DNA of 64,000 bases from Basidiobolus meristosporus CBS 931.73 (Eukaryota; Basidiobolomycota; Basidiobolomycetes; Basidiobolales; Basidiobolaceae), in the NCBI GenBank assembly GCA_002104905.1, contig MCFE01000441.1, forward strand, positions 1 to 64,000, read 5' to 3'. A program made the translations under genes and the position numbers. How positions within the stretch are numbered: position 1 is the stretch's first letter; each line of letters starts with the position of its first letter. The notes under the pieces are model-generated. The model was not told where the DNA came from. It ran no database searches and worked only from the letters and a program-made list of their open reading frames with translations. Shown here one piece after another: positions 11,754 through 61,975 of the stretch.

Positions 11754-14700
11754 ATGAACGAATTCTCCACGTTTGAGCGTTCCCTCTGCGATGCCTGCTT
11801 GCTTCTCATTTATTCGGAGAGTCGCGAACCGCTAGAGTTTCTTGATATTTGCGTGCAGTGTGCTCCAAAGATAGTACCAAAAAACGTCTGGCCCCCCTTG
11901 TTGAAAAATATTCAAGCTCCCACCGGAAAGCGGAAGAAAGCCGCGAAACCCATTTTTTCAAGAAGCGAGCTCGAGTCCGGGGTGTGTGACTGCTGTTCTA
12001 AAAACAGCTTGGTCCAGTTTATCGGGGAAATACCGCTTTGCCATGAATGTTCCACAACTTTCATAGCTAGCAGCGCTTCATTAAGGTCAGGGCGTCTACC
12101 TACCTTTGCGGAGACGAAGGATATAGTCGGTCGTAAAACTGCTTCCTCAAAGACTATCTGCTATTTCCCCGAGTCTTCTGACACAGACACTGACGAGCAA
12201 TTATATGAAGAGTGCCTGGAATATAATTATTCGAGGCTATTCAGGGATATTGCTCAGGAATACCTCGAAGAAAACGGTCGAGATTTTGAGGACTGTTTGA
12301 TGGCTTGCGGGCTGCTTCCTGTCGTATTCAAAAGTGATAAGGTGAAGGATGAAGTGGCAGAGACAAGCCTTAACCATGACGATATATTGCCTTCCGATGC
12401 GTATCTTGATAAATCGGGATCACCATCAATTCCCGAGCATTCAGATCTGGCGGTTGGTTCTCAGTGTACAGCAATGGCGACTACCACCGATGAGCTAACT
12501 GTTGAAGAAAATTGTCCAGAGGAGACCGATCCGCGTTCTCCCATGAATGTTGCGGAGAATAGACCAGAAAACGATAGTGAGAGTTACCTGGATGACGGAT
12601 TGGTAAACTTTGTGAAGATAGAAGAGGGCGCACCAAGTTTTGAGGGGCAAATTCAAAGTGAGGCCTTCATAGATTCAGAAGAGTTGCCTGCCATAGCGAA
12701 ACCGAGCACTCCCTCTTTGCAAGATAATCACGAGCATACTTATGTCGGTGCTGTGGATATATCTGAGCTTCCTGAAGGCGTAATCTCAGTGGAACCAGGG
12801 CCAATTCCAACAGAGCCTGCGGTACCTTTGAAAGTAGAGAGTCCCAGACCTTTAGCATTGGAGCCAGCCGATCTCCATTGTAATTCATGGACACAATGTG
12901 ATGCAACGGATACTGAGAATAAACCATTCCACACTACACCCTCAACTAGTGTTCAAGTAACCCCGCGAAAACGAGGCAGGCCGAGGAAACATCCGATCAT
13001 CGAGCAAAACACACCTCTTACCACCGGGGTATCAACAAAAACTGCCGATTCTGTGAGTGGCAACAAGGAACCACTAGACAACGATTCAACACTACCCACT
13101 CCACGAAAAAGAGGGAGGCCAAGAAAATATCCCGTCGCGGAAAATCCTGTCCCTAAAAGACCACGAGGGAGACCAAGGAAGTATCCTTGCGGCGATAGTT
13201 CCAATCCACGCGTATCATTGGACATCACCGCAGGTGGCTCAGCAAAACAACCAGTGCCAAGAGAGCGTCCACAGGTGGCATCAGCTCAACATCCCCTTCC
13301 AAGTTCTCAAAGCAAGGCCACAGCTAGTTGTTTCTTGACAAGAGGAACAACCAGCAAAATATCGAAACTGGTTGAGAATGAGCTCGACGTGCATCGTTTC
13401 GAGAAACATCGCAGGGTCAAAGTGCTATACAATGACGGCATCTGGTATATCGGTAGAATGATGGAAATAAGCCATGGTAAAATCCGCATACATTACGATG
13501 ACTGGGATGAAACTCATGATGAATGGATCGACTCTCACAGCAAACGGATCTATATTTTTACTAGCGAAGAGGATGAAGGGCCTGTGAGCCGCAGACAAAA
13601 GCGATTGGCAATCCAGAGTGTGGTCAAGCTTGAAGACATGAATGAGCTGGCTTCCCTGGTAAAGCAGGAGCCCATCATTCCAGAAATTCGTAACTACGAA
13701 TCAACCGGCGCAGATCAAGGGATAGTCGAATATATTGAGGAAAGAACTAGAGAGAGATCAACCATCTCTGTCTCCGCGTCCAGTGTTGATGAGTCGTCTC
13801 CTCTTCCCGAAGAGCAGCTTGAGGAAGCAAGTGAAAAATACAATGCACCAGGCTCAATAATGCTATACGAGGAGCACAGATCGATCAGTCAAGACATAAA
13901 TGAGCCAAACTTCATAGACGCGTGGAGAGACTCTGCGGTAAGCGAACAGGATATGTCGAAGCAGAAAGTCCCGGGAATCGCCGATCTTTCTCGTGGGTAC
14001 AACCTCCGGAGCTCAATGAACCTGGATACAGAATCGACTGTAGATAGCCCAGAGAGCGCTACCGCAAAAGAGTCCAAAAAACGCCGTACCTCTCACAATA
14101 TATTTAAGGACCGGTTCAAAGTTGGATCAACTCTTGAGGTCAGAGATCGTCTGAAGGAATGGTGTACTGGGGTGGTTATGGCAATCAAAGGATACCGTGT
14201 ACTGATCCATTACGAAGGTTGGCCAAGCACACACGATGAGTGGATTGAAATAAACAGCAAACGTTTGAAGCCCAACACTGTGATCGAGAAACAGGAGAAA
14301 TTCGAGGAGAAGGAGTTGGATCGCTTGGTTGAGGAGCAAATTGCCGACATCGAAAAGAGGGTAATTATCCGAAGGAAGAAACCAGATCAGAAAGAGGAGC
14401 CTGTTCTGATGGCTGAATATTTCGACGAATCAAACATCGTTGAGGGAGTTGGTGAGTACCCATTGGTATGGCATACTTGGTTACATTATTGAGCATTATC
14501 ATTAGAAAGCGAGAAATGGAAGGTCTACTGCAACCAGTGCAAGGTAGTAATCAAACAGATAAGGTAATGCCCAGATCTAGTTGACCTCTGTCCAGACTCT
14601 GATTAACCCTCCTACTAGATATTACTGCACCTACTGCGAAAATCCATCCGAAGGTTACGACTACGAAAGCTTTGACCTATGTTTATGGTAAATAGTGAGG

Positions 14701-17700
14701 TTGACTCCCTCCCCCGTAGGCCATTGACCAATTTTCTGCATAGGTGCTTTTCACGAAAATTCCCAAGGAAACACCAACACCCGCGCTCCTCGTTCGCTGT
14801 GGAATACATCATGGAAGATGCCAACATCGAGCTGGCTCCCATCATCGGGGAGCTGGTAACGAAGTACGAAAAGGATATCTTTGATGAAAGCTACACGGAG
14901 ATAGATGGGAAACCCTACATGCAAGCAGTCTGTTGTGAGGAAGATAGGAGTCATATTTCCTTATTGAAATGGAAAAAACGAAAGATCTGCGCCTTCTGTA
15001 ACGACGAAGACCCAAACATACTGGGGGGTTTCATTGGCCCTAAACCTTTTGTATACATCAAGGTAACCAACGAGGGAAACAAGAAGAGAAAGAGCTTCTG
15101 GACCCATGATGCGTGTGCTCGATATTCACCTGAGGTGGTTCAGACCAAAGAAGGGGATTGGTATAATGTCAGCATGGCATTAAACAGAGGAAGAAAGATG
15201 GTTCGTACGGAATTGTAACCAAGTGCTACACTGAACGGCTTTCTAACAGGCTCAATAGAGGTGTGCAGTTTGCAAAGAGAAAGGAGCCACCATCGGGTGT
15301 TTCGAAGCCAAATGTCCAAAGAGCTATCATATTCTGTGTACCAAAAAGCCCATGCCACACTTCGAAAAAGGGGTGATATTCTGGTGCCCTCAGCACGAGT
15401 CAATAAGAAGCAAAAAAGGTAATAAGTAATGAACGTCCTAAACCACTGCGTCACCCTCTTAAACGCTGCCTACTTGCTAGAAAAATACAACGACGTATTC
15501 AGCTGCGATGTATGTAATCGAAGCTTTCAAGATGACAGCTGGTTCACATGCATTCCTTGCAGTGACGACTACTTTTCATCCTACGATCTGTGTACCGAGG
15601 TAATTGACTTTGTCGGAGCGCATGAAGGAATATCTGTTAAGGCATTTGTAGTGTTATGAACAAGGTTTTCCCCAATCACACCCGCATCTACCGGTAGATT
15701 TCAAGAAAACTTGTAAGGAGATCAACAACTTGTCGTCACACTGTAGGCTAATCATATCCTTCTAGGCTTGAACGACATACTCGAGGCCCAGGCCATTGAG
15801 GATATCACGAAAGGAAAGAATGAGAAATCATGTTTGTACCTTACAGTTGGAGAAGCTTTATCCAACCATTCGCCTAACATCCTGTCCATAGCACGGAAAA
15901 AGAACTTCACTCCCAAGCACTTGCGTCGCGGGGATAAGATATGCTCCTATTGTTCATCTACAACTTCATCCGTTTGGAGAAAGGGTTCGATTTGGTTTTA
16001 TTCTCATTGTGCTCTACGTTTCTGGGACTCAACTCAGTTTCCGGATAGGCTTTAACGGGGTGCTGATGTGCGGAAATTGCTTTCAATTATCCCATGTACA
16101 GAACAACCATATTAAATCCGAAGCCGGGGCTATCTCTGTGGAAGAATACACCAGCCAGCTGTGCAACTACGAGGAGTGCGTTGATGACTACACTCACAAT
16201 CCATATTTAACCAGAATCGCTTGTACGGATACTCTTTTCGACAACAACATCAAAACCCTATACTTGGATAGTTACGCTCCAACTGAATGCCATCTGTTCT
16301 CCCTCACCATCGATAGCACCTACTACGATGTCCCCGGAAGAGCACCAAGATGTAAACGAGTCTTCATACTTTCACTCAGGTAGCCACTAACGCTCGACAC
16401 CTGTAGGGGCTACTCACTCTGGCACGGATTATCATGGTTGGTGGTATTGATTTCGGTTGCTTGGTATCTGTATGTAATTAACCTGGATTCCAGGAACCTG
16501 GTTGCCTCAGAGCGTCAGAAGGTAGTCTACGCAATCCCTTTCTCATGCCATAGGACAGACTGTAACGTCAGCAGAGCATTGCAGAAGTACACGCGGCCCA
16601 ATGAACGGATTCTATCGAACTTTCTTGGACGAGGTACTGGGCCACAACATTAAATATTTGGAGAGGTTATCAGGCTTAACAAGAAATTAGGGACCGACGC
16701 CATCGAGAGTTTTTTACTCGCAAGAAAGTATGCTACCATAAACTTATCGTCATTCGCTGGCCTGAGCTAACATTAGATACGTGGTAGATGCATCGGACTA
16801 GATATCAATCCAGTAAGTGGACATGTTGTTCTGGTGCTGCGCTGCCGATACTCAATGATTTCTAGGCTGCCGTAGCACTCTCAAGAAGAAATTGCTCGTT
16901 CGCCATTCCTCCCGATCTTGGGATCACCGCCGAGCATCGACCCACTGTTATGCAGGGCGACTCCCGATATCTAGTTGGGCCGCTCTTTGAAGATGAGTCG
17001 TTTGATCACGTGCTTTCCCACCCACCATATAAAGATTGTGTAGCATATTCTACTCACATAGAGGGGGACTTGTCTAGGTTCGCCTATTCTGAAGATTTCT
17101 TGATAGAATACAGCAAAGTCGTGGATGAGACTTGGAGGTGAGCACTGAGTGACCTGATTGTGCCAGCATACTCAACCTCGTTCAACAGGGTCCTAAAGAT
17201 GGGTCGTCGCTGTACTTTGGGAATAGGCGACAACAGAGAGCATTGCTTCTACATTCCAGTAGGATTTCGAATGATAAGCAAGTACATTGAGCGTGGCTTT
17301 GAATTGGAAGAATTGGTAACCGTACGACAAAAAGTTCCTCTTATCTCTCTTCACTGAAGCATGATCTGTTAGATTGTCAAACGACAACGATATTGTTCCG
17401 CTTTTGGGTTAGGCACCTATCTCTGCGTCCAGTATGATTTCCTGATATTTACCCATGAGTTTTTGGTAACCTTACGGAAAATAGACCCTGAGAAAGTGCA
17501 CACGCCAGCTGCATCAGGTTTAAGACGAGTTGGTGTATCCGTTTCGTGAGTGGTGGCTAATACTCATACTCTTAGATGATCAGGATGGTATTCATGAGAT
17601 GACCATCACTGAGACTGTTCGTGGCATCCCATATTGCCCCATTGCTAGGAAAAGTGTGGTGATGGGGACAGTTTGGACATTTAAGCCATCAGCCGAGTTC

Positions 17701-18640
17701 TCATTTGTATCACTCTGTACATCCAGGATGGTAGAGAGGTTCGGAAAAAATGGGTACAACTGGGAAGAAATCCGGATTGAGTTTGCCAAACAAAACGTGA
17801 TCCCCCTTTGTTCCTGAGAATTGTCTTTAAGCATCCTAACAAGAATGTGATCTAGGACCGCCTTCAAGAGAGTCGCATGGTGGAGACACAGAATGGTATT
17901 ACCATATCGCGTCTTTTGTACAATCTCTTGACTAACCCAATCTTTTCAGAAATCTACTCGGAAATGGAAATGTCTCCCTACGAGAGGAGTCGTCTACGAA
18001 GGATCCAGGAGAACAACCAGAAGTTGCTGGCCTTGGTAAGCCTTGCTAGTCCTTACCGCATTGTCTACGCTTCTCATTCAAAAGCCGATATTTAGGGGGT
18101 TATTTCGGACTTAAGTGAAGAATCTGATGACATTTCACACTGCGAAAAGTTACAAAATCTTGAACCTCACCCTCCGCCTGCGCCCTTACTTCTGGTTGTT
18201 ATTCCTCACATACCTAGTACGGTGATCCTTGAAAGCCAGCTATCGGAGTATCGAGCAACCATCCTGAGATGTGCTAAACAAGCGGTAGAAAAACTCCCAC
18301 CATACGGCGATTTGATTGTGGGGGCTCAAGATGTCCGCTTAGAACAAGACCGGCTGTATCCATTGGGAATCCGCATCATGGAAGATATTACAAACAACGT
18401 CCCGGAATTTCGCCTGAAGGAGCTTATCGTGACGGTTCCGGACGGATACGCCAAAGATCGTCGTAAACAATGCAATTGGGAGGAATTCGAAGATCAGAAA
18501 TGCGCCTTGGAAGAGGCAGTGGAACATGTACCAATAGTTCATGTAAGTGCATTCAATTGGAATCTATGAAGCATTGTGCTAAATCGCTGGTTGAATAGGC
18601 ATATTATTTAGTGTTTATGAAAAGACCCGATATAAGTTGA
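11754..18640 (+). CDS. Chromatin-reader / DNA methyltransferase fusion protein (AT-hook, Tudor, ZZ, ePHD, GATA finger, N6/N4-MTase)
   Basis: Twenty exons splice in one frame to 1,937 aa: 11754-14451, 14506-14563, 14619-14687, 14744-15200, 15259-15418, 15481-15599, 15652-15712, 15766-15984, 16049-16351, 16407-16440, 16494-16633, 16691-16727, 16788-16812, 16866-17137, 17189-17315, 17373-17517, 17576-17796, 17856-18035, 18096-18542, 18599-18640. Order: Cys-rich N-terminus (CDCC...CHEC, 78-100); three AT-hooks (RKRGRPRK, 400-476); Tudor/chromo-barrels at about 546-600 and 787-840 (both ending in HYxxWxxTHDEWI); ZZ finger (903-960); extended PHD (1020-1140); second ZZ (1148-1207); GATA-type CX2CX17CX2C (1264-1287); methyltransferase with FLGRGT (about 1437), IGLDINP and SHPPY (about 1510), then GDLSRF and VLKMGRRCTLGIGD. 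A second half-domain (about 1800-1937) lacks PPY. It probably methylates an exocyclic amino group in chromatin DNA; target base unknown. Donors at exons 4 and 8 are GTTCG. Exon 11's first 60 bases might be intronic. Confidence 0.85.
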
Positions 18641-52358: not shown

Positions 52359-55300
52359 ATGGCGTCTATTCCTGAAAAACGGGAAAATGAGAACAATGAG
52401 GAATCTACAACGCTAAACGACTTAGAGTTTACAGAGAAGGTGGAAGTCACTCCAAATTTAACCGAAGATGTTCCTGACGAAAAAAGCGAGAAAAAACCTG
52501 TCGAGCCGAAAGCCAGTATGCGAGAGCTGTTTAACTTCGCCACCAAACTCGATCTGTTCTTGATGGTCGTCGGCTTTGTGGCAGCAATTGTCGCAGGCGC
52601 TGGTATGCCTTTGATGACGTTAGTATTGTGTTTCTTTCCATGTTTATACATTAGCACTAACGTTGCGGAAAAATACGGAAAAATAGGGTGATCTTTGGCC
52701 AAATGATCAATATATTCAAGGTGTTCAATGTGAAGGCAGCCGAGGGATATATCTCCCCCGAAGATATCTCCACCTTCCGCTCCGAAATCAACAAATATGC
52801 CTTGTACTACGTCTACCTTTCAATCGGGATTTTCGTCACCACATACGCCTATATGTCTACTTGGGTTTATGCCGGTGAACGTCAAACCAGAAAAATTCGC
52901 GAATCCTATCTCGCTGCGGTGCTTCGTCAAGAAATAGCTTGGTTCGATAAGCTGGGTGCTGGTGAGATTACAACCCGAATCACTAGCGATACTCATTTGA
53001 TTCAGGACGGTATCTCCGAAAAATTCCCTCAGAGTTGCTCTTATGTAGCTACATTCATATCTGCTTTTGTCATCGCATTTACGAGAAGCTGGCAGCTTAC
53101 CCTAGTTCTTTGCTGTATTATTCCCATGATCGCGATCTCAGTGGGAGTATTGAATATGTTTACCAGCAAGTTTGTCAAACGGGCTCTCGATCACTATTCT
53201 ATCTCTGGTACGTTGGCTGAAGAGGTGATATCTTCCATTCGGACTGCAACAGCATTTGGCCAACAAAAGAAGCTTTCAGAGTTGTACAACAAAAATATCC
53301 TCTTGGCAAAGCAGGAGGGATTGAAGAAGGCGTTCTTTTCGGGTGCCGGAATTGGTGTGATCTACTTTATTATTTATGCCGCTTACTCTCTCGCTTTCTG
53401 GTTCGGTGGAAAGCTATTGAACTGGAATGATATTGACGTCGGCAACGTTTTCAATGTCTTCTTCGCTGTGATTATTGGTGCCTTTTCACTTGGTCACGTC
53501 GCTCCTAATCTCCAGGCCTTTGCTTTTGCACAAGGGGCTGCAGCAAAGCTATACGATGCAATTTATCGGGTCCCTGCTATCGACTCCTCCTCCGCAGAAG
53601 GCATCCAACCCACAGAGAGAACTAATGGCCTAATCGAAGCTCGTGATATTCACTTTACATATCCATCCCGTCCAGATGTTCCCATTCTCAAAGGAATCAA
53701 CCTAACTGTAGAGCCAGGAAAGACTGTTGCCTTGGTGGGAACCAGTGGTTCCGGAAAATCAACGATCATTCAGTTGTTGGAGAGATTCTACGATCCACTG
53801 GAGGGTGAGATCCTTCTAGACGGGCGACCTATTAAATCGCTAAATGTTCACTGGCTTAGACGCCAGATCGGATTAGTGTCCCAGGAGCCGACCTTGTTCA
53901 AATGTACTATTGCCGAAAACGTTGCTCACGGCCTGATAGGAACTGCCTACGAAAATGAAAGCGCAGAAAAGAAGATGGAGCTTATCGAAGAAGCCTGCAA
54001 AATGGCCAATGCTCATGGTTTCATCATGACTTTGCCGAACAAATATGACACCCACGTTGGTGAAAGAGGCTTTCTACTTTCTGGGGGCCAAAAGCAGCGT
54101 ATCGCCATTGCTAGGGCTATCGTCAAAGATCCTCGGATCCTCTTGTTGGACGAAGCTACATCAGCACTTGATACTCAGTCAGAGGGTATTGTCCAGCAGG
54201 CTCTGGATCGTGCTAGTTCTGGCAGAACTACCATAGTGATCGCCCATCGTCTTTCGACCATTCGCAATGCCGACCAAATCGTTGTAATGGAACGTGGCCA
54301 AATCATTGAGACAGGCACTCACAACTCTTTGCTTAACGAAAAGGGCGCCTATTATAGACTCGTCGAACTCCAAAAGATCGGTAATCAAGATGAAGAGTTG
54401 TCAGTTGTTCCTCCACCTGAAGACCAAAATATCACTGCTGCTACCACACAAGATTCACAATTGAGACGGCAAACTACACAGCACTCAGTTCTGTCGGTAG
54501 GCAGTAGGAAGGACGTCGAGGAGGGTGCTGAGGCAAAACACTCTTTCCTTTACGTCTGCTACCGCGTATTCCTATTGAACCGGCCGGAGTTGAAATTCAT
54601 GTTCGGTGGATTGTGTGGTTCTATAGTAGCTGGCGCCGTTTACCCCGTTTTCGCTATTATCTTTGCTGAAGTAATTACTGCACTAAGCATCGTGAACGAC
54701 GACGCAAAGCGTACACGCGAGATCAACTTCTGGGCCTTGATATTCCTAATCATTGCGATCGTAATGTTTATCGCCCAAACCGTTCAGGGGACTTTCTTTG
54801 GCATCTCTGGCGAAAAATTGACCGAACGAATCCGTGCTATGTCATTCGCTAATATGCTGAACCAGGAGATCGGGTGGTTTGATCGTGACGAGAATAACAC
54901 TGGCGCATTGGTATCTGCCTTATCCACCGATGCCACGCATGTGCAAGGGGTTAGCGGCTCTACATTTGGCACGATCTTACAAGTAGTGGTCAACATTGTT
55001 GGTGGATTTGTTGTTGGTCTCGCTTACGGTTGGAAGCTTACCCTAGTAGTGATGGGTTGCATTCCCCTTCTGATAGGTGCAGGACTCATTCGGATGAGAA
55101 TGATGAATGGCTATCAACAGAAAACCAAAGCTGCCTACGAACATTCCGCACAACTGGCATGTGAAGCTGCGTCATCGATTCGAACCGTCGCCTCCCTTAC
55201 TCGAGAACAGGATGTGTGCCGGGAGTATCACGCTGAATTGGAGGAACCAGTGAAAGCTGGTAAACGGAATGCATTTGGATCTTCCCTTGTGTTCGCACTT

Positions 55301-56335
55301 TCACAGGCCATTGTGTATCTAGTTAACGCGCTTGGATTTTGGTATGGAGGAAGGTTGTTATCTACGATAACCTATTCTGGAACTACCCCAATCCAGGAGT
55401 ATGATCAGAAGCAATTCTTTGTGGTGTTCATTGCTATTGTGTTCGGTTCCCAAAGTGCTGGTAACATATTCTCGTTTGTTCCAGATCTTAGCAAAGCTAA
55501 ACATGCTGCAAGCAGCATCATCGCCCTTTTGGATCGTCAGCCCCTCATTGATGTAGTTAATGCTCAAGGTGACAGAGTAGAGTCTGTCATGGGGCGTATC
55601 ACTTACCGAGATGTCCACTTTCGGTATCCTACTCGCCCAGGAGTTCCGGTACTCCGTGGCTTAAATATTGATATTAAGCCTGGCCAGTTCGCTGCGTTGG
55701 TGGGCCCATCAGGCTGTGGTAAGAGCACAGTGATCGGTCTAACGGAGCGCTTCTACGATGTTCTTGCTGGAAGCGTTATGATTGATGGAAAGGATGTTCG
55801 TCAAATGAATATCAACGATATGCGCAAGCATATTGCCTTGGTCGGCCAGGAGCCCACGCTTTACGATATGACGATTAGAGAGAACATCTGCTTTGGCTTA
55901 GTTGGCCGTGTCCCTTCTCAAGAAGAAATCGAACAAGCAGCTCGTGACTCCAACATTCATGATTTCATCATGAGTCTTCCTCAAGGTTACGATACTCCAC
56001 TTGGTGGGAAGGGCTCACAGCTTTCTGGCGGCCAGAAACAGCGTATTGCGATTGCCCGTGCACTAATTCGCCAGCCGAAGATATTGCTTCTCGACGAAGC
56101 CACTTCTGCCCTTGATGCTGCTTCGGAGAAAATTGTTCAGACTGCACTGGATAATGCCGCCAAGGGACGAACCACTATTGCGGTGGCGCATCGACTCTCG
56201 ACAATTCAAAAAGCCGATATTATATACGTATTCAAAAATGGAGTTGTTAACGAACAAGGCACTCATGATGAACTCATGGCCCTTAGGGGGCAATACTACT
56301 CTCTTGTTGTCCAACAAGACTTGAGCACCAACTGA
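52359..56335 (+). CDS. Full-size ABCB/MDR exporter (P-glycoprotein-like)
   Basis: Two exons (52359-52618, 52687-56335; the intron begins GTTAGT) give 1,302 aa in TMD-NBD-TMD-NBD order. Each half has about six membrane helices with the ABCB coupling motifs (RQEIAWFDKLGAGEITTRI; NQEIGWFDRDENNTGALVS). First NBD: Walker A GTSGSGKST (about 437), Q-loop SQEPTLF, signature LLSGGQKQRIAIARA and Walker B ILLLDEATSALD. Second NBD: GPSGCGKST (about 1092), GQEPTLYD, QLSGGQKQRIAIARA and LLLDEATSALD. All ATPase motifs are intact. It would export lipids, peptides or xenobiotics at the plasma membrane. It lies 549 bases upstream of the NRPS-like gene on the same strand and might move or protect against its product, but such exporters are common, so this is speculative. 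Confidence 0.95.
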
Positions 56336-56884: not shown

Positions 56885-59800
56885 ATGAACCATACATTAG
56901 TTCAGTCAGAGCAGCAATCGCTGCTTGAAGCTCTGTTACTTTCCATGAAGCGAGTGGACAAGCATCCTACATTGCCCGTTATATATTCTTCCACCATGTG
57001 CGCTCTTATGTTTCGATATACCAACTCACAGGTTTTCTCTCTTCATATCGGAAGTGAGCAGTCCCAAGTGTCGATTTCCCTGTGCCCTGATATGTCCCTC
57101 ATGGACCTCTTGAAAGTAACCGAGGATCGAATCGTGACGTCACTTCGTGGAAGACACCTCTCTATTTCTGAGTTGGCCATCCGCCTGTATGTCACGGATT
57201 CATCACCTGTTGTGAATGACAGTTCAGAGATACAAATGCATATTAGTTCCACAACCGGCCAGGTAATCGACAGAATCGGCATCAACAAATCTTTGCTTTG
57301 TAGTGGCACAGACGTTGTAGGCCATTGGAATGAACTGCTGAGGCGTTTTGTTGACCAACCAGATGTACCTATATCCGAAGTTGTCCTACTTCCCCCTGTG
57401 GAAGCGGAGCTTTTAACCTCCGACGGCTGGGCAACCACTTCCTTTGTTACCGATACACTGGCTCCATCCGTTGGAGTTTATCTTCACACGGTTTTTGAAA
57501 ATACCTCCAAAATGTATCCTGGGCGCACAGCGATACTGTTCGAAAAATCAACTGGCCAGGATGAGGTTTTCACTTACCAAGAAGTTGAAGCTATCTCTAC
57601 TACATTGGCCAAATACCTGCATGAGAATCACCCTACAGGACCAGGGGTGTATATTGGCCTATTAATGCCGCAAAAACCGACTGCATATATTGCAATGCTT
57701 GCCATCCTTAAGACTGGTTCGGCCTATGTCCCGATTGACCCAGCATGCCCCTCAGAGCGCATAGAATACATACTCGGCGATTCTCAAGCCGGATTATTGC
57801 TGTGTGAAAGGGAAGCAGTAAGAGATAATCTACCATGCCAGACATTAGCCTTGGATGATTGGCTGGCGGCCCAGTCATCCTTCAGTGAGAGTTTCAAGCT
57901 ACCTTCTGGAGTACTTCAAGTAGCAGATCCGGCCTATATGATATATACTAGCGGAACCACTGGTCGGCCAAAAGGTAAACCCAAGCCTATATAGATACTG
58001 ATGCTGATGGATGCTGACGACTGCATATTACAGGGGTTGTCGTTGAACATCAAAATGTTGTCAGCTTGGTCAACGCAGAGTATTCCATTTTCAAATTAAA
58101 TGCTGAAGATCGAGTATATCAGCAGTTCTCCCTTTCCTTCGATGCATCTATCGAGGAAATATGGCTACCGTTCAGAGTGGGTGGAACCCTTGTTCCAGCT
58201 ACTCAGAAGCCAGGTCCAGGACTCTCGGAAACTCTAGAAGCCAAGGGTGTAACTGTTCTTAGCTGTGTCCCAACCTTACTAACCATGCTGCCGGAAGACG
58301 AGAAGTTGCGAAGTCTTCGACTGCTCATTCTGGGAGGAGAAGCTTGCCCCAAATCCGTAGTGGAAAGATTCGGTATTGGCTGTCGGATTGTAAATAGCTA
58401 TGGGCCGACCGAAACAACGGTAAGTGATTATGCTCGGTCCATTTTGAAATCATAGAAACTCAATTTTGTTAGGTGATTGCGACATGGAAAGAATGCAATC
58501 CAACTGATGATATTGTGACAATTGGACGACCAATCCCTGGGTATTCGGCTTTCATCATGTCAGCACATAATCAACTTCAGCCTGTAGGGGTCGCAGGAGA
58601 ATTGGTTATTGGGGGTCCCGGTGTCACACGGGGGTATCACAACCTTCCCGAGCTTACAAGGAGCAAATACATCAAAAATACATCCCTGGATTCCGAGGGG
58701 CGGTTATACAAAACTGGTGATCTGGCTCGGTTTAATGCTGCCGGGGAAATTGAGTATTTGGGCCGTATCGATACCCAAGTGAAGCTACGTGGCTTTCGAA
58801 TCGAGCTTGCCGAGGTTAGCACCTTTCTGTTGTATGCATGGGATGTTCTGTCGTACTCAAGTACATTTCAGGTAGAATCAGCACTGCAAGCTTGCGAAGG
58901 CATACAGCTGGCTGTGGCTACTGTAGATGTGGATGTATTTAGCATGGAGCATCTAGTGGCATACGTGGTTCCGACTGGCAACGAGGCCTTCTTGGACTTT
59001 CAGGCCATAAAAGATAATCTTCAGAAAAAAATGCCTAGCTTCATGGTTCCCTCCACCTTCCAGGTAATACAAGATGTACCAACTTTGCCAAGCGGAAAAA
59101 TCGATCGCAAGAGTCTACCAAAGATGTCACCTGACGTTGCGGTCTCTGTAAAAGATGAATCCAAACCAACCATTGCCCCGAGAACCCCGACGGAGGCAAA
59201 ACTAGTGGACGTTTGGACCCGTTACTTCAACGGTAAAGCCATATCGGTATCGGATAACTTTTTTGATCTTGGTGGCCATTCGCTCTTTGCTGCTATGCTC
59301 ATCTCAGAACTACGTAGCAGTGAGTGCACAAAAGGCATCTCGATGGGACATATATATCAATTTCCCGTTCTAGAAAACCTGGCTGCCTTCCTTGACACTG
59401 GTTTATCCACTGAGACTAGGCATGTTAGCAAGAACAGTAATATAGATCGAGGAAACAGTGATGTTGAGAAGTTGAGCAATTTGGAGAGAGTTGATTTTCC
59501 ACCTACGCCTAGCTACTTGCATACTTTCGGTCGTATGATCTGTCAGCTCGCAGCAATACTAACGGTTTTCCTTGTAACGACACTACCAGTATCAATCTTG
59601 TACATGTTATACAAGTTCACAGAAACTCCGTTAGCCGTCGTGTTAGTGCTTTTTGCCCTGGATTTTTGTTGGATGGCTGTGATCGTAGTTGCTTTGAAGT
59701 GGATCTTGATCGGGCGGTACCGTGAAGGAAAATGGCCACTTTGGGGGGCCTATTACTGGCGTTGGTGGGTTGTAAGAAGCTGCACAAGAGTGCTCAAGTT

Positions 59801-61975
59801 GTATATCCTCGAGGGATCTCCACTCCTTAACCTTTTTTACAATCTTATGGGAGCAAAGATCCACATGACAGCCTATGTTGGAACCCGCCACGTATACTGT
59901 TTTGACCTCGTTACCATCAGGGAAGAAGCATCTATTGGTCTGAATGCGTATCTAAACGGATACAAGGTTGAGAATGGATGGCTTATCATTGGAGCGGGAA
60001 ACATCGTAGGCGCTGGTGCACGGGTTGGAAATAAGTCGCATTTGGGGCTGAATGCAGAACTCCAAGATGGGGCTAGCCTTGATGACTTATCGGTTCTCCA
60101 AGATGATCAACAAATCCCAACGAACGAAAGGTGGGCGGGGTCGCCGGCAAAGTTGGTAGAGCACACAAATGTCAGGGATAAAGAAGACTCCACATCTCAG
60201 TTGACTATCTGGATATTTTGCCTGTTGCATTTCATTGCCGCCATATTTGTAAACATCGCCTTTGGATTGTTGGCGTCACTCACAGGTAGGTGAATTCCGA
60301 AGTTGGTTATTTATGCCATGTCTCACAAAGCTTTGAATAGGGATCGTCGTGTTGGAAGCCATACCCGTCTTGCTGCCAACTTTCAATCCATATATTACAG
60401 TCATTTTGGCCACTCCGTTTGTTTCAATAATTGCCATGACTCTTTTCTGTCTTGGGGTAGTCTTGCTGAAGTTAATGATTCTTCCCAAGATATCTCCTGG
60501 AGAGTATACACTGAGGGGCTTATTTTACTTACGTAAATGGTAGACTGTCACTATCAAGTATAGCCTCGATCATATTCTCACACCTTTAGTGCTCTAGGTG
60601 CTTAGACATATTGATGCAGATCTCGCTTGAAATGACCAACTCAATCTATGGAACCCTATATGCACCTCACTGGCTTCGCGCCCTAGGTGCAAAAATCGGG
60701 AAAGCCTCTGAGGTTTCCACTATTACATATATATCCCCAGACCTTCTGAGAATAGGAGACGGGTGTTTCCTCGCGGATTCTGTGATAGTTGGCCCCCCAT
60801 ATGTTCGCCATGGGAAACTATCTCTTGACTATGCGACAGTAGAGGAGCGCTCTTTCGTTGGAAATGGCGCACTTTTCCCTGCGGGGGTAACAATGGGTAG
60901 GTTAGATTATTTTATGAAACTGGATGATCATTAACGTGGTTCAGGTAAGGATTGCCTCCTTGGAGTACTCTCAACACCAGGCCACGACAAGAGATCTTTG
61001 GAAGGAAACAGCTCCTGGCTTGGGTCCCCATCCATGTATCTCCCCAATCGACAAGCAGCTACCAAAAATTGGCCGAAAGAGCGTACCTATGCTCCTTCAA
61101 ATAGTCTATACATAGTTCGCTATTTAATGGAACTCTGGCGAGTCTTCTTGCCCAATATGGTCAATATCACGGCTTTCGTCATTGTGGTAATGATATTGGA
61201 GCTACTTTACGAGCGAACATCCAGTCGAAAGATTCTTTCCGTTGCAGATGAATTTATGTTGAGCAATGGTCTTTTCACCAACTTATCTCAAGGAGGTCTA
61301 ATTGCCTCGTTTCTACCAATCTTTCTGATAGTCAATAGTGTTGTGGCTGCGGGTGCTTGTGGGTTCGTCCTGATCATGAAATGGATACTAATAGGCACTT
61401 ATGCGAAGCGCGAAGTGCCATTGTGGAGTTCTTTCGTGTGGAGGTTGGTAATCATCCAGGATTCCCGATAACGTGCTCTCCGTTACTAAAATTCAATTAG
61501 GACAGAGCTAATAACAGCTCTACAAGAAGGAATAGCCAATAGGCAGTTACTTCAAAATTTGCGTGGTACTCCGTTAGTGTGCTTTTGGTTTAGAATGCTA
61601 GGAAGTCAGATAGGTGACCGCGTATGGATGGACACTTTACAAATCACTGAGGCTGACCTGATTCACATCGATGATGATGTCTGTATTGGTGAAGATACGA
61701 TACTACAGGTAGATTCCATATTTGCGTTAAGTGCATTGGCCCAAGATTTAAACAACCGCCATTTCTTGCAGACACATCTTTTTGAAGACCGAATCATGAA
61801 GATGGATAGCTTGAAGATTGGTTGCCGTTCTAATGTTGGCTCATCCTCAGTAATCTTGTATGGGTCTACTTTAGAGGAAGGTGTTTCGATTGGAGCTCTT
61901 TCTTTAGTAATGAAGGGCGAAAGATTACCATCCCATACTGGGTGGAATGGAATCCCTCTGAGCAATAACTGCTAA
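56885..61975 (+). CDS. Membrane NRPS-like enzyme, epsilon-poly-L-lysine synthetase (Pls) type
   Basis: Nine exons (56885-57974, 58034-58419, 58473-58814, 58872-60285, 60341-60539, 60598-60896, 60945-61443, 61501-61708, 61772-61975) give 1,546 aa. Residues 1-200 are non-conserved. The adenylation domain has YTSGTTGRPKG, NSYGPTETT, YKTGDLARF, GRIDTQVKLRGFRIELAE and LPSGKIDRK. Its pocket residues, aligned by eye to GrsA, read D-A-E-S-I-G-S-V-I-K, a lysine-type code. A carrier domain with LGGHS (Ser for phosphopantetheine) follows. Then come six membrane helices in three pairs (TVFLVTTLPVSILYML; FAIPVLLP-type; FVIVVMILELL) alternating with left-handed beta-helix acyltransferase-like domains (GLNAYLNGYKVENGW, WLGSPSMYLPNRQ, THLFEDRIMKMDSLKIG). 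There is no condensation or thioesterase domain. This is the bacterial Pls/PosA layout, also known from Epichloe VibA. Predicted product: a short epsilon-linked lysine polymer. Confidence 0.88.

Follow-up and report, generated by a model that had tools for sequence, protein, structure and literature searches.

Can one fungal protein both read histone marks and methylate the bases of DNA? The question is raised by a locus on contig MCFE01000441.1 of Basidiobolus meristosporus CBS 931.73, whose first 64,000 nucleotides (the window) were analyzed, and in which a gene on the forward strand (11754..18640) joins a bacterial-type methyltransferase to a series of predicted chromatin readers. Such a fusion had been proposed in an earlier description of the letters alone (the sequence-only reading). 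Our results indicate that the protein is probably a nuclear DNA amino-methyltransferase of early-diverging fungi, ancient among them, derived from a prokaryotic DpnII-like restriction-modification enzyme and guided by histone readers. This proposal builds on the observed gene structure, domains, homology and conserved motifs, on the restriction-modification context of the relatives and on the distribution of the family, from which we infer DNA as the substrate, targeting by the readers and the role of a C-terminal pseudo-catalytic half-domain.

Results

Splicing gives a gene that begins with an ATG at 11754, ends with a TGA at 18640 and encodes a single frame of 1900 residues across 22 exons, with 21 introns of 51-64 nt, all of them GT-AG. 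The introns at 16437-16493 and 16522-16574 are required, as the frame breaks past residue 1380 without them. Intron 19 (17896-17949) holds no in-frame stop and its retention would add 18 residues; introns 6, 8 and 14 are also free of stops, but their retention would shift the frame. The structure was aligned with two proteins. The B. ranarum protein K7432_002643 (P0119, 1846 residues), predicted by others, is identical at 1323 of 1815 aligned positions over residues 59-1897, spanning both readers and methyltransferase, and gives no support for residues 1-58. The deposited protein of B. meristosporus CBS 931.73 (P0002) is identical at 562 of 565 aligned positions over residues 1287-1900, the last third only. 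P0002 (window 16049-18640) is a truncated gene model that begins at residue 1287, omits exon 17 and keeps intron 19. The 20 exons and 1,937 residues of the sequence-only reading were nearly right, since P0119 aligns across readers and methyltransferase, although both counts had to be revised.

The late start of the deposited model could be taken to mean that readers and methyltransferase are two neighboring genes misjoined by hand splicing. We consider this extremely improbable, because gene models made by others in many fungi cover both halves, and because the metagenomic protein P0239, obtained in a search for divergent members, combines within 804 residues an MBT barrel, an extended PHD (ePHD) and N6_N4_Mtase by Pfam with ZZ-type and GATA-like fingers recognized by eye. 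The single frame joining the two halves, as first proposed, is thus borne out by the splicing and by the alignment with P0119 over residues 59-1897. The GC content at third codon positions hardly differs between the two halves (0.483 for the readers, 0.479 for the methyltransferase), and the frames adjoining the gene match GHMP kinase and class I tRNA synthetase, with a weak match to WD40 repeats as well, which argues that this is neither a contaminating nor a freshly inserted bacterial gene; contamination was ruled out on these grounds. In the assembly searched (89.0 Mb, 1311 contigs), a protein search found this locus alone, with no second copy detected at that sensitivity, and a search of the whole genome with the PF01555 profile gave no match, probably because the gene is broken up by introns.

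The methyltransferase core (residues 1372-1612; 16321..17486; coordinates here and below refer to the forward strand) was compared with PF01555 (N6_N4_Mtase), a check proposed together with the sequence-only reading, and matched it with 34.0 bits (E=3.7e-8), over the gathering cut-off of 26.7. This places the enzyme in the N6_N4 superfamily, in agreement with the bacterial-type amino-methyltransferase first described. The same match is precomputed for P0119, and the AlphaFold2 model of the homologue P0004 reached a predicted local distance difference test score (pLDDT) of 84.4; a single-sequence fold of the prokaryotic member L055 (pLDDT 34) was discarded. In NCBIfam, the methyltransferase matches of the fungal core were all weak and generic, while those in PHROG were phrog_498 and 18146 (DNA methyltransferase) and 12517 (unknown function). 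No DNA methyltransferase stood among the 50 matches listed in the fold searches, which says nothing for or against the assignment.

Motifs pointed out in the sequence-only reading were located in the spliced protein: the S-adenosylmethionine (SAM) binding motif FLGRGT (residues 1417-1422; 16621..16695, interrupted by an intron at 16634-16690), IGLDINP (1435-1441), SHPPY at the motif IV position (1492-1496; 17016..17030) and GDLS (1508-1511) followed by GIGDNR (1543-1548). The catalytic loop is therefore present as claimed, but the motif of the class is HPPY and not S/D/NPPY. HPPY aligns with the D-PPY of the tRNA guanine enzyme 5e71, and in an alignment of 57 rows (A2) the fungal and prokaryotic sequences all carry HPPY, DLS and GD-R unchanged. 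Residues 900-1720, used as a query, retrieved 158 long homologues; 120 of these were listed and examined by simple motif patterns, on which all counts over this set rest; HPPY is kept in 118 of them and FxGxGT in 116, so that these motifs are not due to chance. FxGxGT, HPPY, GDLS and GD-R occur in this order, in an end-to-end alignment of the fungal core with prokaryotic enzymes of about 510 residues, as expected of a member of the HPPY-type enzymes. Judged by sequence, HPPY is an unusual catalytic motif that is conserved in the family.

A region absent from the earlier description lies at the C-terminus (residues 1767-1897; 18180..18628). When the catalytic half (80 rows) was compared with the C-terminal region (50 rows) by hhalign, the two matched with a probability of 97.9 (E=3.4e-13), against 0.2 in the reversed control; the region is a duplicated catalytic half that has lost HPPY. 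This loss bears on the possibility that the whole protein is a chromatin scaffold whose methyltransferase part binds DNA without modifying it. The long stem branch of the fungal clade (see below) would fit a scaffold, as would the fact that the literature, in the parts examined, assigns no modification to the enzyme. Nevertheless, we regard a scaffold as quite unlikely, as the near-universal SAM and HPPY motifs of the homologues and the invariance of HPPY, DLS and GD-R in A2 are unexpected for a dead enzyme, and it is the pseudo-half, by contrast, that has lost HPPY.

Other methyltransferase families were compared by means of a family profile (A1) whose 18 rows include 4 eukaryotic ones, fungal members among them. 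The whole protein scored 506 bits, and a bacterial and a viral-contig member from outside the profile scored 449 and 365. By contrast, the UPF0020 loci of this genome reached at most 14.2 bits, and MT-A70, MetB-like and D12 sequences no more than 1.7. On the question whether the enzyme would rather cluster with RNA or protein methyltransferases of eukaryotes, the part covered here (UPF0020, MT-A70 and N6_Mtase loci, at most 14.2 bits against 506 with a profile that contains fungal members) favors the sequence-only reading. Its further statement that the enzyme is neither MT-A70/METTL4 nor a cytosine-C5 enzyme agrees with the Pfam search, where the protein matched none of PF05063 (MT-A70), PF02384 (N6_Mtase/MetB) and PF00145 (C5) at E<=1. 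These three identities were rejected accordingly; the MT-A70 and C5 loci of the Basidiobolus genome lie elsewhere. A MetB-like locus is also present: in Basidiobolus, formerly placed in Zoopagomycota, L014 (G000:C365:27813-28187) is an N6_Mtase/Eco57I-like gene with NPPY (PF02384, 2.2e-13). MetB has been inferred to be lost in most Zoopagomycota (PMC11258239; papers cited by PMC number were available in part, and our statements refer to those parts).

The protein does not look like a Trm11-type tRNA methyltransferase either, with no THUMP match in the Pfam search and HPPY in place of D/NPPY. The Rossmann core fold of such enzymes is found here too, and the protein might have been repurposed for RNA methylation, for instance at N2 of guanine as in Trm11-type enzymes, at chromatin or during transcription. 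This is unlikely: besides the missing THUMP match and the HPPY where 5e71 has DPPY, the genome has its own, low-scoring UPF0020 loci, and the prokaryotic relatives adjoin restriction endonucleases.

From the prokaryotic matches, which number at least 579, we retained 80 loci together with 6 viral ones, and 85 of these 86 hold an HPPY frame (L090, with none, was dropped). A DpnII-family endonuclease gene was found in 24 of the 85 loci, in 20 of them within 28 bp and on the same strand; D12 adenine methylase genes occur in 15 and AlwI-type endonuclease genes in 3. The search models for DpnII, D12 and AlwI were built from 4, 2 and 1 loci of the counted set identified by Pfam, the four seed DpnII genes matching Pfam DpnII with E from 2.6e-15 to 9.7e-95, and 61 loci show no DpnII gene in the flank examined, which was sometimes short. 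No D12 gene was detected in the examined flank of 12 of the 20 adjacent cases, where the HPPY enzyme may be the sole protector, and 12 of the 20 DpnII-adjacent enzymes are long forms like the fungal one; a QDxR-like motif of the C-terminal half is present in 42 of 60 long prokaryotic forms. Phage and plasmid searches gave distant matches with unspecific names, except for a Fusobacterium locus, where D12, DpnII and one additional gene are lined up with the HPPY gene, in that order. This DpnII neighborhood is the best evidence for DNA as the ancestral substrate. DpnII recognizes GATC and AlwI recognizes GGATC, and the neighborhood suggests, but does no more than suggest, a GATC-like ancestral site.

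Two further observations concern these loci. In 7 of the 85 loci (among them L021:8553-9098, L045:8488-9072 and L063:8494-9063), the HPPY methyltransferase is followed by a gene of about 185 residues, no more than 114 bp away in 6 cases; the L021 copy has no Pfam match, and the gene might encode an undescribed endonuclease or partner. L101 and L103, which are predicted to be viral or proviral contigs, carry short HPPY methyltransferases about 280 bp from AlwI-type endonuclease genes.

Ahead of the methyltransferase, the predicted order of domains is AT-hooks, two MBT/Tudor barrels, a ZZ-type finger, the ePHD, a second ZZ-type finger and a GATA-type finger, with the C-terminal half-domain closing the protein. 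Apart from the latter, this is the order of the sequence-only reading, upheld by Pfam, motif reading and conservation in the homologues. The MBT/Tudor and ePHD modules are predicted chromatin readers over the Pfam cut-off. PF02820 (MBT) matched the N-terminal piece with 47.6 bits (E=1.9e-12), above cut-off, in two stretches, the best at residues 794-840 within barrel 2 (residues 785-841; 14106..14276) and the other without a given position. Barrel 1 (residues 547-601; 13392..13556) shows Tudor_4 (551-598) and SAWADEE (560-599) matches, both below cut-off. The barrels match solved chains of L3MBTL1/3 and PHF20/PHF20L1 (barrel 1: L3MBTL 6e-14, PHF20L1 4.3e-4; barrel 2: L3MBTL3 3.1e-17, PHF20 1.1e-7), where the low L3MBTL E-values are sums over repeats, the best single repeats standing at 0.0089 and 5.7e-4, respectively. 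The ePHD (residues 1021-1142; 14979..15402) matched PF13771 above cut-off (46.6 bits, E=4.1e-12) and a solved KMT2D-containing chain (8.7e-13); its signature is found in 111 of the 120 listed homologues, 85 of which have barrel, ePHD and HPPY in that order.

The fingers scored under the Pfam cut-off (ZZ, PF00569, 15.3 bits; GATA, PF00320, 15.6 bits) with fitting and conserved cysteine spacing, and for this reason we call them ZZ-type and GATA-type only. ZZ-type finger 1 (residues 905-959; 14520..14795, across three exons; E=0.017) has its cysteine pattern in 90 of the 120 homologues, and finger 2 (residues 1152-1204; 15492..15702), placed by sequence reading as PF00569 has two stretches in the piece, in 78. 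The GATA-type finger (CxxC-x17-CxxC, residues 1266-1292; 15939..16083; E=0.012) is found in 112. Three RGRPRK AT-hook motifs (residues 405-478; 12966..13187; PF02178 E=0.037, below cut-off) recur in B. ranarum, and RGRP[RK] occurs in 37 of the 120. Finally, two CxxC...CxxC pairs near the N-terminus (residues 12-37 and 78-100; 11787..12053) are possible zinc fingers, with no Pfam match and with the first pair outside the P0119 alignment.

The fusion occurs among listed homologues of Mucorales, Umbelopsis, Mortierellales, Glomeromycotina, Endogonales, Calcarisporiella, Kickxellales, Dimargaritales and chytrids such as Spizellomyces; except for four species that were looked up, these are the lineages to which we take the homologues to belong. 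Mucor lusitanicus, a genetically tractable species, has an orthologue as well (P0204). The search for divergent members also found a protein of Paramicrosporidium saccamoebae (Rozellomycota) with ePHD and methyltransferase by Pfam and ZZ-type fingers on either side of the ePHD by eye, in which no barrel or GATA match was found. No Dikarya name is among the matches listed, and no search was aimed at Dikarya. The Funneliformis geosporum protein P0124 has four N-terminal barrel motifs and not two, which suggests, from its sequence, that some Glomeromycotina have additional MBT/Tudor barrels.

A tree of 108 rows was built by a quick method, with 42 of 105 inner branches open and two viral-contig rows as the root. 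It groups the fungal rows in a single clade (Shimodaira-Hasegawa-like approximate likelihood ratio test, SH-aLRT, 100) whose subclades track fungal groups. The phylogeny suggested earlier for a bacterial origin thus unites the fungal enzymes, on a stem that is too long (5.38) to single out a donor. The independent route to base modification formerly proposed for one fungus would fit an enzyme class that is neither MT-A70 nor C5, but the family spans early-diverging fungi and is not an invention of one species.

Elsewhere in the window, the forward strand holds an ABC transporter with membrane and ATPase stretches, two of each, and a nearby AMP-binding open frame (52661-56332 and 58473-60290), possibly a secondary-metabolite neighborhood.

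Discussion

Taken together, these results suggest how a restriction-modification enzyme may have become part of fungal chromatin. The catalytic part would have been captured from the modification enzyme of a DpnII-like system before the fungal phyla that carry it separated, and would then have been joined to readers. In the present protein, the AT-hooks and the GATA-type finger would hold DNA, while the MBT/Tudor barrels, the ZZ-type fingers and the ePHD would bind methylated lysines or histone tails and so bring the enzyme to particular chromatin. The core would bind SAM through FLGRGT, flip a base into the HPPY pocket and methylate the exocyclic N6 of adenine or N4 of cytosine, and the pseudo-catalytic half might be an integral partner that, without catalysis of its own, helps in binding DNA or choosing the target. 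A GATC-like target and N6-methyladenine (6mA) rather than N4-methylcytosine (4mC) as the product are more speculative, a guess that leans only slightly this way.

The product deserves separate attention, since a DNA methyltransferase making 4mC and not 6mA would be a variant of the same proposal, one that we consider less probable but worth keeping in view. The solved protein that comes closest in the profile comparison, a putative modification methylase (2zie, E=4.6e-19), has SPPY, and DNA cytosine-N4 methyltransferases match too (8s9n, 1.7e-7); however, the adenine enzymes MboIIA (4.5e-9) and DpnA (4e-7) and the tRNA guanine enzyme 5e71 (2.2e-8) match at a similar order. The classical DpnII system has an adenine enzyme as its second methylase too, and several relatives share operons with D12 adenine methylase and DpnII endonuclease, which speaks against 4mC. 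Work in Mucor weighs the other way, against a large 6mA role for the enzyme: Mta1/P1 make symmetric 6mA sites and deletion of metB removes 70-75% of 6mA (PMC11258239). The genes deleted in that study were metA, metB, metC, mta1, p1 and the demethylase gene dmt1, none of them described as PF01555 (PMC11258239). It reports 6mA and 5-methylcytosine, and its parts examined hold no 4mC measurement, "4mC" appearing once, in a reference title (PMC11258239); a 4mC writer in Mucor could therefore have escaped notice, and known writers account for much of the 6mA there.

Fungal 6mA has been attributed to the MT-A70 complex and MetB (PMC11258239, PMC12695648). With slightly less than an even chance, in our estimate, fungi ancestrally had a third, independent amino-DNA-methylation system beside these two, of DpnII-like origin, with HPPY and a pseudo-enzyme partner, acting as a histone-mark-guided writer of 6mA or 4mC, kept in many early phyla and seemingly missing from Dikarya. 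If true, one protein would link histone state directly to base modification from Rozellomycota to Mucoromycota, and a restriction-modification enzyme would have become chromatin machinery near the root of the kingdom. The M. lusitanicus orthologue makes the idea testable soon, and existing PacBio data could be read again for 4mC and GATC-type sites.

Many independent eukaryotic captures of bacterial adenine methylases have reportedly been described by Iyer, Zhang and Aravind (2016, BioEssays). Searches of the literature on fungal and eukaryotic base methylation and for orthologue locus tags yielded no description of the family in the parts seen, although the 2016 survey may already mention it. 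In their accessible parts, a 2026 review of fungal DNA methylation (PMC13297926), a 2021 review (PMC7862722) and a 2025 study of 6mA across eukaryotes (PMC12695648) make no mention of it, and PMC8557920 concerns a C5 enzyme.

Among known systems, the bdelloid rotifer N4CMT (PMC8885841), which the sequence-only reading had named as the nearest concept, still is the nearest, likewise combining a bacterial PF01555 enzyme with a royal-family chromatin reader in a eukaryote. However, N4CMT is a permuted beta-class enzyme that starts with its catalytic part, has a single chromodomain at the C-terminus and is reported only in bdelloids (PMC8885841), whereas the fungal protein has the SAM motif first (FLGRGT at 1417 before SHPPY at 1492), several N-terminal readers and a family across fungi. 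Fungal MetB is also a bacterial-type amino-methyltransferase of early-diverging fungi with a fungal clade apart from bacteria, but it is a PF02384 enzyme for which an MmeI-like recognition domain, but no chromatin reader, is described (PMC11258239), and its counterpart here is the separate locus L014. The MTA1/AMT1 complex and AMT2/5 are eukaryotic 6mA enzymes present in early fungi, AMT2/5 having ZZ fingers too (PMC12695648), and the pairing of active with inactive members resembles the core and pseudo-half described here; they are, however, MT-A70 proteins, a family to which the fusion protein has no sequence match. Trm11, TrmN and Trm14 combine THUMP with DPPY, in contrast to HPPY without THUMP in the fusion protein, and the UPF0020 loci of the genome score very low. 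The prokaryotic HPPY enzymes beside DpnII or AlwI (e.g. L055, with DpnII alone nearby, L089, and L092, with D12 and DpnII) are homologous from end to end: they have the same core, marked by HPPY, GDLS and GD-R, and many of their long forms also have the pseudo-half. At the N-terminus, where the long prokaryotic forms show a helical segment that by eye resembles a helix-turn-helix, the fungal protein has eukaryotic readers, and it belongs to a clade with a long stem. The capture of a bacterial amino-methyltransferase by a eukaryote is thus of a known kind, but this one is set apart by its catalytic family, its architecture and its great age within fungi.

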